The translations under genes were made by a program, and so were the position numbers. DNA of 11,999 nt from Elusimicrobiota bacterium (GTDB taxonomy: Bacteria > CG03 > SLGR01 > PWQF01). The notes beneath the pieces were generated by a model that was not told where the DNA came from, made no database searches, and saw only the letters and a list, made by a program, of their open reading frames with translations. Position 1 is the stretch's first letter. The number at the start of each line of letters is the position of its first letter. The stretch is taken from the NCBI GenBank assembly GCA_003557485.1, contig PWOI01000152.1, positions 1 to 11,999 on the forward strand. Reading direction: 5' to 3'. Below, in pieces: positions 4,827 to 9,838 of this stretch.

Positions 4827-5693
4827 ATGAAAGACAATGCAATCCTATTAATATCCTGTCCCGACCGGAAAGGACTGATAGCAGCAGTTACTGATTTTGT
4901 TTTTTCCCGGGGAGGCAATATAGAGCATGCCGACCAGCATGTAGACAAGGACAGAAATATCTTTTTTATGCGGATAGAATGGTCTCTTGAGGGTTTTGAT
5001 ATTCCGCGCGGAGAGATATCCGGATGCTTCAGCCGGCTTGCAGAAAAATTTGATATGGAGTGGCAGCTTCACTTTAGCAGGGAAAAGACAAATACGGCGC
5101 TATTCGTTTCGGGAGAGTTGCACTGTCTTTATGACATCCTCTACAGATACTCCGAAGGCCAGTTCAATATAAACATTCCCCTTATAATATCCAATCACCC
5201 GGAAGCCGGTGAGGTTGCCGAAAGTTTCGGGGTGGATTTTGAGTTTATACCCGTTGAAAAAGAAAACAAAACTGAACAGGAAGAGCTCCAGCTTCAGCTG
5301 CTTAAAAAGTATGAAATAGAGACAGTTGTGCTTGCCAGGTATATGCAGATTCTTACCGGCCGGTTTGTAGATGAGTACGCTAACAGGATAATAAACGTTC
5401 ATCATTCCTTTCTTCCCGCTTTTGCCGGCGCCCGGCCCTATGAGAGGGCTTTCCGACGCGGAGTTAAAGTAATAGGTGCGACCAGTCATTACGTAACTGA
5501 AAAACTGGATGACGGGCCCATAATAGAACAGGATGTCGCAAGGGTAAGCCACCGGGACAGCGTCAGGGAGATGAAAAGAAAAGGCCAGGACCTGGAAAAG
5601 GCGGTTCTGTCAAGGGCGCTGAAATGGCATTCCGACCGGAAAATACTTGTTTACGGTTCTTCCGAAGAGGTAAAAACGGTAGTTTTTGACTGA
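4827..5693 (+). CDS. purU: Formyltetrahydrofolate deformylase PurU
   Basis: Hydrolyses 10-formyl-THF to formate and THF. PurU balances one-carbon folate pools and can supply formate. The 288-residue protein has an N-terminal ACT domain (residues 5-82, with CPDRKGLIAAVT and NIEHADQHVD), the usual regulatory part of PurU. A formyltransferase-fold domain follows (89-288), starting at HCLYDILYRY and IISNHPEAG. The active site is intact: Asn190 and His192 in INVHHSFLPAF, and Asp228 in EKLDDGPIIEQDV. The GARPYERAF and GVKVIGATSHYVT segments also fit PurU rather than PurN. Length is typical for the family. The stop TGA overlaps the rnfC start as TGATG, so translation of the two is probably coupled. 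No good ribosome binding site precedes the ATG, and a GC-rich hairpin ends 10 bases upstream. Confidence 0.95.
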   Translation: MKDNAILLISCPDRKGLIAAVTDFVFSRGGNIEHADQHVDKDRNIFFMRIEWSLEGFDIPRGEISGCFSRLAEKFDMEWQLHFSREKTNTALFVSGELHCLYDILYRYSEGQFNINIPLIISNHPEAGEVAESFGVDFEFIPVEKENKTEQEELQLQLLKKYEIETVVLARYMQILTGRFVDEYANRIINVHHSFLPAFAGARPYERAFRRGVKVIGATSHYVTEKLDDGPIIEQDVARVSHRDSVREMKRKGQDLEKAVLSRALKWHSDRKILVYGSSEEVKTVVFD

Positions 5694-6964
5694 TGGGCAT
5701 AGGGATTAAGCCTTTAACAAATAAAGAAACCGCCAGGTTTGAGCCGATACAGAACCTCCCTGTTCCTGAAGAGGTAATCCTTTATACGTCACAGCATATC
5801 GGGGCTCCTTCGGAAGTAATAGTTGAAAAGAAAGATACAGTCCGGAAGGGGCAGTTAATAGCTTCGCCCAAAGGAGGGTGCTCGGCGGCGCTCCATTCTT
5901 CAATTGCCGGAGTTGTCCGTGATATATCTAAGGTCAACATGTGCGGCGGCCGGTCCGGAAAAGCTGTTACTATTAAAAAAGAGAAAGTGCAGGAGCAGGA
6001 AAAAGATTTTATGAAGCCGCTTTCTTCTCCGGATGCCGATAAAATAATAAAAAGAATAGCCGATGCCGGAATAGTCGGAATGGGCGGAGCCGGGTTCCCG
6101 ACACATGTTAAGATAGTTCCGCCGAAGCCTGTGGATATCGCTTTTTTAAACGGATGCGAATGCGAACCTTTTCTTACAGCCGATGAAAGAGTAATGACCG
6201 AATATAACAAAAAAGTGGTTGAGGGGTTTGCCCTCCTGAAAAAAGCAACCGGAGCAGAAAAAGGCATAATAGGGATAGAAGACGACAAACCTGTTGCCAT
6301 AGAAAAAATAACCGAAGCTGCCGCCGCCTGCGATGACATCGAAGTGAAAATACTTGAAAAAATATACCCCCAGGGTTATGAGAAAATGCTTATTACAAAT
6401 ACGACAGGCCGGACGATACCCCCCGGGAAATTACCCTTTGACGTTGGCGTAACGGTCCATAACGCCTCCACTTGCCTGGCTGTTGCGGAAGCAGTCTTTG
6501 AAGGCAAACCGCTTATAGAAAGAGTGGTAACTGTTTCCGGGGAATGCCTGCCTCATCCGGTCAATTACAGGGTGCCTCTGGGTATGCCTGTCAGTGAAGT
6601 TTTGAGATACTCTATTTCAGGTATTTCCAAAATGGGAGAATTTGATGTTTATATGGGGGGGCCGATGATGGGTGTCTCCCTGGACAGCCTGGACTACGGG
6701 ATCCTGAAAACTACTTCCGGCATAATAGTGCAGCGCCCTTTTTTCAGGAAACAGGCTCCCTGTGTTAAATGCGGCCGCTGCGTGGATACCTGTCCTATGG
6801 GACTCTGCCCCCAGAGGCTGAATATGTTTTATGAAGGCAGGGATTTCGGATCTATGTCCGAAGCCGGACTGGAAAACTGTATGGAATGCGGATGCTGCAG
6901 TTATGAATGCCCTTCTGAAATCTGCCTTACCGAAAGGTTCAAGGAGGCCAAGATAAACCTGTGA
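5693..6964 (+). CDS. rnfC: RnfC, NADH-facing subunit of the Rnf complex
   Basis: Peripheral subunit of the ion-translocating ferredoxin:NAD+ oxidoreductase, on the cytoplasmic face, and the site of NAD(H) and FMN binding. The 423-residue protein has an N-terminal barrel/hybrid domain (residues 1-100). The nucleotide and flavin fold follows, with GMGGAGFPTHVK (129-140) and LNGCECEPFLTADERVM (152-168). A SLBB-like region covers about 275-345. Two [4Fe-4S] motifs are complete: Cys357/360/363/367 (CVKCGRCVDTCP) and Cys396/399/402/406 (CMECGCCSYECP), with an extra Cys401. The C-terminus ERFKEAKINL matches the usual end of RnfC, so the protein is not truncated although the next expected gene is missing. 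The ATG overlaps the purU stop by one base, and the TGA stop lies within the GTGA overlap with rnfG. Confidence 0.95.
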   Translation: MGIGIKPLTNKETARFEPIQNLPVPEEVILYTSQHIGAPSEVIVEKKDTVRKGQLIASPKGGCSAALHSSIAGVVRDISKVNMCGGRSGKAVTIKKEKVQEQEKDFMKPLSSPDADKIIKRIADAGIVGMGGAGFPTHVKIVPPKPVDIAFLNGCECEPFLTADERVMTEYNKKVVEGFALLKKATGAEKGIIGIEDDKPVAIEKITEAAAACDDIEVKILEKIYPQGYEKMLITNTTGRTIPPGKLPFDVGVTVHNASTCLAVAEAVFEGKPLIERVVTVSGECLPHPVNYRVPLGMPVSEVLRYSISGISKMGEFDVYMGGPMMGVSLDSLDYGILKTTSGIIVQRPFFRKQAPCVKCGRCVDTCPMGLCPQRLNMFYEGRDFGSMSEAGLENCMECGCCSYECPSEICLTERFKEAKINL

Positions 6965-7491
6965 CCAGAGAAAAAAGTACTTCATTAAAGATGGTTTCCG
7001 TTCTGCTTGGATTCTGCCTTGTGTCGGCGGCATCGCTTGGCTATATTTACGGTATTTCCGCAGAACGCATTGAGGAGAACCGGCGGCAGGTTATAAGGCA
7101 GTCAATATTCAATGTTATACCCGGCATAGATGACTATGACGTCCATCCGGAAGACAGGTCTTTTTTCCGGGGCCTGTCTGAAGACGGTATCGTTGCGGGT
7201 TATGCGCTACAGAGGGGCGGGATAGGGTTCCAGGGTGAAATAGTCCTGGTTGTCGGGATTGCCGAAAGCCTTGAGAAAATAACCGGGGTGGATGTTGTAG
7301 AGACCGTTGAGACCCCTGGCCTCGGGGACAGGATCAGGGACGGGAGTTTTCTAAATCAGTTTATAAACATGGATATCCCAGATGACGGAAAAATTAAGAT
7401 TGACGGCATAACGGGTGCGACTATGTCGTCTGATGCAGTTAAAAGAATCATAGAGAACGCTATAAAAGATGCTGAAAAAAGAATTTATTAA
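6961..7491 (+). CDS. rnfG: RnfG, covalent-FMN subunit of the Rnf complex
   Basis: Membrane-anchored subunit with a large extracytoplasmic FMN-binding domain. One N-terminal helix (residues 11-30) is followed by the flavin domain. GFQGEIVLVVGI (89-100) and VETPGLGDRI (116-125) are family signatures. The covalent attachment motif is DGITGATMSS (148-157), with Thr154 as the expected phosphoester-linked FMN site; an ApbE flavin transferase would be needed and is not in this window. The 176 residues are a little shorter than many RnfG proteins, but all motifs are present. It starts at GTG 6961, overlapping the rnfC stop by 4 bases, and overlaps rnfE by 23 bases at its end. In known clusters rnfD stands between rnfC and rnfG; here nothing does. 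Confidence 0.93.
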   Translation: MTREKSTSLKMVSVLLGFCLVSAASLGYIYGISAERIEENRRQVIRQSIFNVIPGIDDYDVHPEDRSFFRGLSEDGIVAGYALQRGGIGFQGEIVLVVGIAESLEKITGVDVVETVETPGLGDRIRDGSFLNQFINMDIPDDGKIKIDGITGATMSSDAVKRIIENAIKDAEKRIY

Positions 7492-8065
7492 AGGACTCTG
7501 GAAAGAGAACCCGGTGCTGCGCCAGCTTCTGGGAATGTGTCCGACACTGGCGGTAACCACTTCGTCTTTAAACGGAGCGGCTATGGGCCTTGCAACTACT
7601 TTTGTTGTTCTTTCTTCCGGCATTGTTGTTTCCATTCTCAGAAAGATTATACCGCCCCAGGTGAGAATACCGGTCTTTGCGGTCATAATAGCGACCTTTG
7701 TAACGATTGCAGATATTGTGCTAAAGGCGCATTTTCCTTTAATAAGCCGAGAACTTGGGCCGTATGTCCCTCTTATTGTTGTAAACTGCCTGATAATGGG
7801 CAGGCAGGAGGCTTTTACTTCTAAAAACCCGATACACCTATCTATCGCAGATACGCTCGGTATGGGACTGGGGTTTACCTGGCTCCTGGTGCTACTGGGT
7901 TCAATCAGGGAGATTATGGGAATGGGAACCGTTTTCGGTATGAGAATTATGCCCTCAACTTTTGAAGAATGGATAATAATGGTTCTGCCAGCAGGCGCTT
8001 TTATTACTCTCGGGCTTCTGGCAGCTTTCTATAATATGATAAACGAAAAGAAAATGAGGAGCTGA
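7469..8065 (+). CDS. rnfE: RnfE, integral membrane subunit of the Rnf complex
   Basis: One of two homologous membrane subunits (with RnfA) that form the core of Rnf and resemble NqrD/NqrE. The 198-residue protein starts with the typical cytoplasmic KKEFIKGLWKENPVL and has about six hydrophobic helices. Cys24 in GMCPTLAV and Cys107 in VVNCLIMGRQEAF are the conserved half-membrane cysteines that share an intramembrane [2Fe-2S] cluster with RnfA. SIADTLGMGLGFT and GSIREIMGMGTVFG are further RnfE marks that separate it from RnfA. ATG 7469 lies inside rnfG with a 23-base overlap, and no strong ribosome binding site is seen, so coupling to rnfG is likely. The stop is followed after one base by the rnfA ATG. 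Confidence 0.95.
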   Translation: MLKKEFIKGLWKENPVLRQLLGMCPTLAVTTSSLNGAAMGLATTFVVLSSGIVVSILRKIIPPQVRIPVFAVIIATFVTIADIVLKAHFPLISRELGPYVPLIVVNCLIMGRQEAFTSKNPIHLSIADTLGMGLGFTWLLVLLGSIREIMGMGTVFGMRIMPSTFEEWIIMVLPAGAFITLGLLAAFYNMINEKKMRS

Positions 8066-8066
8066 A

Positions 8067-8660
8067 ATGGCGGCGGAACTTATTACAATTTTTGTATCGG
8101 CGGTACTGGTAAACAATTTTGTTCTTTACTATTTCCTCGGGATATGCCCGTTCCTGGGAGTTTCGTCAAAACTGGATTCTTCCGTCGGCATAGGAATGGC
8201 TACTACTTTTGTTATGACTATGACCGCTCTGGTAACCTGGCCGGTATATTATTACTTTATTTCCCCGGAAACAGGACTCAACCTTCCTTTTCTTGAGTAT
8301 ATAGCTTTTATAATTGTTATTGCTTCGTTGGTACAGTTTGTAGAGATGTTTTTGAGAAAGTTTTTTCCGCATCTTTACAGGGCACTTGGTATTTATCTTC
8401 CTCTTATAACAACAAACTGCGCGATACTAGGTATGGCTCTTTTTATGGTCCTAAGACAGTATAATTACATACAGTCCGTGGTTTTCGGTTTCGGCGCTGG
8501 CTGCGGCTTTACTCTTGTCATTATAATAATGGCCGGGATAAGAGAGCAGCTTAAGTTCTCCCCGGTTCCGGGAGTTTTTAAAGGAGCTCCTATAACTCTT
8601 ATTACCGCAGGGCTCCTGGCTCTTGCATTTATGGGGTTTGCCGGGATAATAACGCCGTAA
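8067..8660 (+). CDS. rnfA: RnfA, integral membrane subunit of the Rnf complex
   Basis: Six-helix membrane partner of RnfE in the ion-translocating core. The 197-residue length is usual. The opening VNNFVLYYFLGICPFLGVSSKLDSS carries conserved Cys27, and ITTNCAILGMALF carries Cys118; together with RnfE Cys24 and Cys107 they are the expected ligands of the shared [2Fe-2S] cluster. GAGCGFTLVIIIMAGIREQL (143-162) and the C-terminal GLLALAFMGFAGI are characteristic of RnfA. The ATG sits one base after the rnfE stop, with GAGGAG about 8 bases upstream, one of the better ribosome binding sites in this operon. rnfB begins one base after the stop codon. Confidence 0.95.
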   Translation: MAAELITIFVSAVLVNNFVLYYFLGICPFLGVSSKLDSSVGIGMATTFVMTMTALVTWPVYYYFISPETGLNLPFLEYIAFIIVIASLVQFVEMFLRKFFPHLYRALGIYLPLITTNCAILGMALFMVLRQYNYIQSVVFGFGAGCGFTLVIIIMAGIREQLKFSPVPGVFKGAPITLITAGLLALAFMGFAGIITP

Positions 8661-8661
8661 G

Positions 8662-9468
8662 ATGACTCTTTATCAGAGTATTGCAGTTCTGGGGTCGCTC
8701 GGAGTTGTTTCGGGCATAGTGCTTGCTGTCTCTTTTTCACGCCTCAAAGTTGAAGATGATCCGCTCGTTGAAGAAATTCTACAGGCGCTTCCGGATATAA
8801 ACTGCGGAGCCTGCGGGTACGCCTCCTGCCATGCATACGCCGAACTTGTGGCTGAAGGGAAAGCCCCCGCTGATATGTGCGCTCCCGGCGGCCCGGAAAC
8901 CGAAGAGAAAATAATCCGTATTAAAGGCGGAGATTTATCTTCCGAAAAGAAAATTCCCAAAAATGCTGTTGTGCATTGTAAACCACAGAAAAGAATCTTT
9001 TCAGCCGGGTATTGCGGTATTGAAACCTGTTCTGCAGCAAATATTTCCGGTGCGGGCCTGCTCTGCAGATTTGGATGCCTGGGTTTCGGAGATTGTCTGG
9101 CTGCTTGTCCTTTCGACGCAATAAAAATAAACAGCAGCGGGGCTGCCGAAGTAATCCCGGAAAAATGTACGGCCTGCGGATTATGTGTCAGGAGCTGCCC
9201 CAGGGATATTATCCTTATGGTAGACTATAATGACGGCCGCGCAAGCTATGTAGGCTGCTCAAATACTCAGGAAGGCAAGAATACGCGGAAAGTCTGCGGT
9301 TCCGGCTGCATTGCCTGCGGACTCTGTGTAAAGCGCGCCCCGGAAGGGACTTTTGTTCTTGAAGATAGCCTTGCCCGTGTCGAACACTCCGGAGGGGAAA
9401 TAAATGTTGAAGAAATAAAATGCCCGACCGGGTGCATATACGAAAGCGTTGAAAAAACTAAGAATTGA
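8662..9468 (+). CDS. rnfB: RnfB, ferredoxin-accepting iron-sulfur subunit, C-terminal ferredoxin reduced
   Basis: Electron entry subunit that takes electrons from reduced ferredoxin. A membrane anchor (residues 5-25) is followed by the Fe-S domain DINCGACGYASC with ligands Cys48/51/56/73. A two-cluster ferredoxin domain follows, with Cys135/139/145/149 (CRFGCLGFGDCLAACP) and Cys169/172/175/179 (CTACGLCVRSCP). A second ferredoxin-like region begins at Cys212 with CIACGLC (Cys216/219/222). Here the next Cys of the motif is replaced by Ala226 (VKRAP), and the matching CxxCxxC of the last motif is absent, leaving only Cys254 of KCPT plus Cys258. In a 2[4Fe-4S] fold this leaves ligands for just one cluster (216/219/222/254). 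The 268-residue length agrees with RnfB having this extra domain. It is coupled to rnfA (1-base gap) and overlaps rseC by 20 bases. Confidence 0.94.
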   Translation: MTLYQSIAVLGSLGVVSGIVLAVSFSRLKVEDDPLVEEILQALPDINCGACGYASCHAYAELVAEGKAPADMCAPGGPETEEKIIRIKGGDLSSEKKIPKNAVVHCKPQKRIFSAGYCGIETCSAANISGAGLLCRFGCLGFGDCLAACPFDAIKINSSGAAEVIPEKCTACGLCVRSCPRDIILMVDYNDGRASYVGCSNTQEGKNTRKVCGSGCIACGLCVKRAPEGTFVLEDSLARVEHSGGEINVEEIKCPTGCIYESVEKTKN

Positions 9469-9838
9469 GGCCCTGGTCCTTGAATCATCCCCGGAAGAAA
9501 TTAAAGTTGAGATATCCCCGCCCGGGGAATGTTCTTCCTGCAACTGCTGCGCATATTCTAAAAAAAGAAAAATAACAGTTCCCGTAAAAGAAAGCATCTC
9601 TACCGGAGAAAAAGTTTCTTTAACTGTTGATTGCAGCAATCTTGCCGGTATGTCCTTTATTGCATATTTTATTCCGTCAGTTTTTCTACTCACAGGATTC
9701 GTATCCGGGTATTTGATTTTTGGAAACTTAGGAGCCCTGGCCGGTGCTATATCTCTTCTTGCAGCCGGCAGTTTTGTTACAGGACGTCTCAGTTCCGGTA
9801 AATACCGGTCTGCTGTGCAGGTAGAAAGGAGTGACTGA
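9449..9838 (+). CDS. rseC: RseC/MucC family membrane protein
   Basis: A 129-residue inner-membrane protein of the RseC/MucC family. In E. coli, RseC is linked to sigma-E control and, together with the Rsx (Rnf-like) complex, to reduction of the SoxR iron-sulfur protein. Linkage to rnf therefore supports the call. The N-terminal domain has a cysteine cluster Cys28, Cys31, Cys33, Cys34 (ECSSCNCCAY), then a basic KKRK stretch and a strand TVPV. Two membrane helices follow at about 67-91 and 93-112, then a short basic tail. The frame opens with TTG at 9449, overlapping rnfB by 20 bases. No ATG or GTG lies before the Cys cluster, so a TTG start coupled to rnfB is the best reading. It is the last gene of the rnf run; 89 bases separate it from the next clear gene. 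Confidence 0.85.
   Translation: MKKLRIEALVLESSPEEIKVEISPPGECSSCNCCAYSKKRKITVPVKESISTGEKVSLTVDCSNLAGMSFIAYFIPSVFLLTGFVSGYLIFGNLGALAGAISLLAAGSFVTGRLSSGKYRSAVQVERSD

Follow-up and report, generated by a model that had tools for sequence, protein, structure and literature searches.

Rnf is an ion-pumping ferredoxin:NAD+ oxidoreductase, and the locus described here raises the question of whether it can be built from an operon in which one standard subunit gene is missing. The window, which is the whole contig of 11,999 bases (contig C32; PWOI01000152.1 of assembly GCA_003557485.1), carries six genes head to tail at positions 5693-9838, identified from open reading frames and NCBIfam matches as rnfC-rnfG-rnfE-rnfA-rnfB-rseC (Table 1). 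No rnfD- or nqrB-like sequence was found in the window. The original prediction had offered three explanations: that rnfD is encoded elsewhere, that another membrane flavoprotein replaces its product, or that the complex works in a reduced form with a changed ion-pumping mechanism.

The predicted gene content and order were borne out by open reading frames and by NCBIfam and Pfam matches, as was the 4-base overlap between rnfC and rnfG, where the rnfC stop (TGA, 6962-6964) and the rnfG start (GTG, 6961-6963) share the sequence GTGA. A purU-like gene precedes rnfC, its last base doubling as the A of the rnfC ATG, and it is the upstream neighbour of rnfC in all members of the order in which the site is assembled. 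Genes for RnfA, RnfB, RnfC, RnfE and RnfG are all present. The weakest call of the operon is rnfG, whose score lies just under the TIGR01947 cut-off of 102 bits; its assignment is supported by the FMN_bind domain and the flavinylation motif. Cofactor motifs are kept in RnfC, RnfG, RnfE and RnfA, and the cysteines of RnfE and RnfA listed in Table 1 are located as would be expected of the RnfA/E [2Fe-2S] site.

Table 1. Features of the rnf operon in the window and of the separately located rnfD (window positions unless a contig is named).
Feature	Position	Strand	Matches and motifs
purU-like formyltransferase	4827..5693	+	ACT and Formyl_trans_N domains
rnfC, 423 aa	5693..6964	+	TIGR01945 439 bits; two CxxCxxCxxxC [4Fe-4S] motifs
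GTGA overlap, rnfC stop/rnfG start	6961..6964	+	position of rnfD in the rnfCDGEAB type
rnfG, 176 aa	6961..7491	+	TIGR01947 89 bits (best match); PF04205 FMN_bind domain; flavinylation motif DGITGAT (Thr154)
rnfE, 198 aa	7469..8065	+	TIGR01948 233 bits; two Cys (24, 107)
rnfA, 197 aa	8067..8660	+	TIGR01943 255 bits; Cys27 and Cys118
rnfB, 268 aa, ferredoxin-type subunit	8662..9468	+	TIGR01944 99 bits; NF005503 192 bits
rseC-like gene, 129 aa	9449..9838	+	PF04246 58 bits
rnfD, 334 aa, intact	G000:C109:1861-2865	minus	TIGR01946 307 bits, cut-off 207, full length

A further RnfC-like protein, about 440 aa long, is encoded in the genome (L134:5043-6368, on G000:C84), and most of the phylum's genomes have similar proteins at comparable sites. 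Its match to the RnfC profile has the two segments exchanged (profile positions 114-419, then 16-108), and it looks circularly permuted. The adjoining gene is aldehyde dehydrogenase-like, an arrangement that we take to be reminiscent of PduS in microcompartment operons.

The assembly as a whole, a metagenomic draft that comprises 212 contigs totalling 2.07 Mb and has a completeness of 86.6%, was searched with PF03116. A single match (331 bits) was obtained, on contig C109 rather than in the window, consistent with the predicted absence of any rnfD remnant from the operon. The protein encoded there scores far below the NqrB cut-offs, and among solved structures it is closest to the RnfD chains 7zc6_D, 9eri_D and 8ahx_D. 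In Acetobacterium woodii RnfD, T156 carries the covalent FMN and N123 and D249 contact riboflavin (PMC11889175). We regard 9eri_D as the A. woodii protein, since these three residues fall exactly on the named positions in our alignment. Thr175 of the C109 protein aligns with T156, and Asn131 and Asp274 with N123 and D249, all three being invariant among the eight RnfD proteins aligned. Contig C196 encodes an ApbE flavin transferase (PF02424, 299 bits). RnfC and RnfD both score far below the cut-offs for NqrA and NqrB, and the operon includes rnfB, arguing against an NQR-type enzyme. The genome contains a single rnfE, and the C109 RnfD therefore has no other partner operon.

Three lines of evidence place C109 in the same organism as the window. 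In the RnfD tree its protein groups with the order's other RnfDs in a single clade (support 1.0). The fur-ZIP part of the contig has 78% DNA identity to a congener (G001), with which the window shares 78-86%. Finally, the tetranucleotide correlation between C109 and the window is 0.64, as compared to 0.61 between the window's own halves. On the strength of the tree, the congener identity and the composition, we assign C109 to the window's organism with high confidence and reject the alternative that it is a contaminant contig.

The arrangement was then compared across 98 genomes searched with PF03116 and the window's RnfE. Both rnfD and rnfE were found in 48 genomes, 5 within the order (the window's own, G002, G004, G005 and G007) and 43 outside it. 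Within the order the two genes are on different contigs in every case (5/5). In 41 of the 43 genomes outside the order a single contig carries both, no more than 1,295 bases apart; the two that deviate are G072, in which they are separated by a contig break, and G042, with its scattered genes. Fisher's test of this contrast gives p ~1e-5, with the proviso that members of the order are related and not independent. In two relatives contig ends do not account for the separation: rnfD is well inside contigs of 40 kb in G002 and 66 kb in G005, and the G002 operon is inside a contig of 138 kb. These interior positions show that rnfD is truly separated from the operon. In addition to the operon studied here, G002 carries a second, divergent Rnf-like cluster (G002:C57; L074:3012-7096), consisting of genes for RnfC-like (325 aa) and NqrB/RnfD-like (245 aa) proteins, a split RnfA/E-like piece and an RnfB-like protein (200 aa), with small genes downstream.

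The draft state of the metagenome assembly leaves room for an artefact: either a collapse at the rnfC/rnfG junction that removed rnfD, or the inclusion of C109 as a contig foreign to the genome. We regard this as exceedingly improbable. A direct rnfC-rnfG junction without rnfD is present in five independent assemblies (the window's own, G002, G003, G004 and G005), the GTGA overlap itself recurring in G003, and there are no repeats at the junction. Together these observations rule out an assembly collapse, which had been considered for positions 6940-6980 and is contradicted by the same junction in the four other assemblies. The location of the relatives' rnfD genes inside long contigs, away from the junction, and the evidence given above for the origin of C109 weigh against the artefact as well.

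The operon by itself would also be compatible with a true loss of RnfD, leaving an RnfCGEAB complex with an altered ion-pumping mechanism, and PF03116 searches of the draft genomes of G003 (88% complete) and the congener G001 (82% complete) likewise returned no rnfD match. In G003, however, only about 245 bases separate the end of proS from a contig end, which is where one would expect rnfD, and an assembly gap may therefore hide the gene, loss being the alternative. In G001, rnfB and rseC are on a contig that starts just before rnfB, indicating that its Rnf locus is only partly assembled. Against the reduced complex, the window's genome encodes an intact RnfD that retains the cofactor residues, and RnfD is present in 5 of the 7 other genomes of the order. 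Retention of rnfD as an orphan gene argues for selection and against a complex that dispenses with it, and no route from RnfG to RnfC is known in the absence of RnfD (PMC11889175, PMC12174285). We consequently consider a reduced complex highly unlikely, and an RnfD-free enzyme is rejected for the window's genome on account of the intact gene on C109. Replacement by another membrane flavoprotein need not be invoked, given that rnfD is in the genome. Of the three explanations originally proposed, the first is thus upheld by the gene on C109, while the other two are disfavoured by the preserved cofactor residues, motifs and ApbE.

The surroundings of rnfD differ among members of the order; neighbouring genes were named here by reading the sequences and not by family searches. 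In most relatives rnfD is beside proS and/or nifS-iscU-cysE-mnmA. It follows proS, directly or one or two genes on, in G004-G007, and is directly upstream of nifS in G002, G005 and G007 (with iscU in G002 and G007, and cysE), while the next gene after rnfD is mnmA-like in G004 and G006. The window's genome has rnfD upstream of a fur gene and a gene for a ZIP transporter, and none at its proS and nifS loci. The congener G001 has fur-ZIP directly before an Rrf2-type regulator and nifS, with no rnfD upstream of fur. RnfD, RnfE and RnfA trees each place the order in one clade (support 1.0, 0.994 and 1.0, respectively); the exact sister group of the order differs between these small trees. The three concordant clades fit a single enzyme whose rnfD moved once, in the ancestor of the order. 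The simplest history would be that one move, followed by local rearrangement in the window's family.

These neighbourhoods could be taken to mean that the orphan RnfD works in some other electron-transfer system, as it adjoins proS or Fe-S assembly genes (nifS-iscU) in relatives and fur and ZIP in the window's genome, and NqrB/RnfD-like proteins do occur in partial NQR/RNF-like systems (PMC8238504). Those systems, however, carry a fused NAD-binding domain that is absent from the 334-aa C109 protein, which matches only TIGR01946 over its full length. Moreover, no second FMN-binding or RnfC partner is found beside C109 rnfD, and this is the only RnfD available to an otherwise complete Rnf. A role outside the Rnf complex is for these reasons very unlikely. 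We attach similarly little weight, indeed slightly less, to the idea that rnfD is kept apart so as to be controlled differently, together with Fe-S assembly or metal-regulation genes, allowing a switch between full Rnf and a D-less RnfCGEAB sub-complex.

Taken together, these data argue, with a probability of about 0.93, that the window carries five of the six standard Rnf genes and that rnfD, having moved in the ancestor of the order, persists intact elsewhere as the genome's only RnfD. The separately encoded RnfD would join the operon products in a normal six-subunit complex, with flavinylation presumably carried out by ApbE. Electrons would then pass from ferredoxin through RnfB, RnfA/E, RnfG, RnfD and RnfC to NAD+, which is the usual route (PMC12174285, PMC11889175). 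Nothing in the sequences suggests an altered enzyme: it is very likely a complete, ordinary one, unusual in its gene order alone. Any consequence would be regulatory, in that rnfD may be expressed separately from its partners.

The locus is thus a split rnf operon that encodes a standard complex. As a variant in the gene order of a known system it is minor and holds limited interest. It nevertheless cautions that a subunit absent from an operon is not necessarily absent from the genome, a point of relevance to annotation pipelines in which a single cluster decides whether Rnf is scored as complete or incomplete. No description of a displaced rnfD was found in the literature available under open licences. 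Three operon types have been described, rnfABCDGE, rnf(B)CDGEA and rnfCDGEAB (PMC5736913), and all of them include rnfD (PMC5736913; PMC4014512).

A division of the Rnf genes between loci is also seen in a sister lineage of the same phylum (families f5 and f6), where the displaced gene is rnfC and rnfDGEAB remain together, whereas in the window's order it is rnfD. The rnfDGEAB cluster is preceded by an lgt-like gene (L075-L078 of family f5; G008:C2, G009:C68 and G014:C157), and rnfC of this lineage is on another contig, beside a murB-like gene. The phylum's Rnf operons have therefore been opened at two different points, so that operons that are usually intact are broken differently in neighbouring lineages. 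G042, from another phylum, is also split, with rnfD-rnfG, rnfA-rnfB and an rnfE fragment on three contigs (L135, L136 and L137). The closest counterpart of the window's operon is the rnfCDGEAB type of Acetobacterium woodii, Clostridium and Methanosarcina, with which it shares the subunits, the order C-(D)-G-E-A-B and the cofactor motifs; the similarity of the C109 RnfD to 7zc6_D and 9eri_D extends along the entire protein. The difference is that rnfD is between rnfC and rnfG in that type and at another locus in the window's genome. The operon in the window is rnfCDGEAB minus D.
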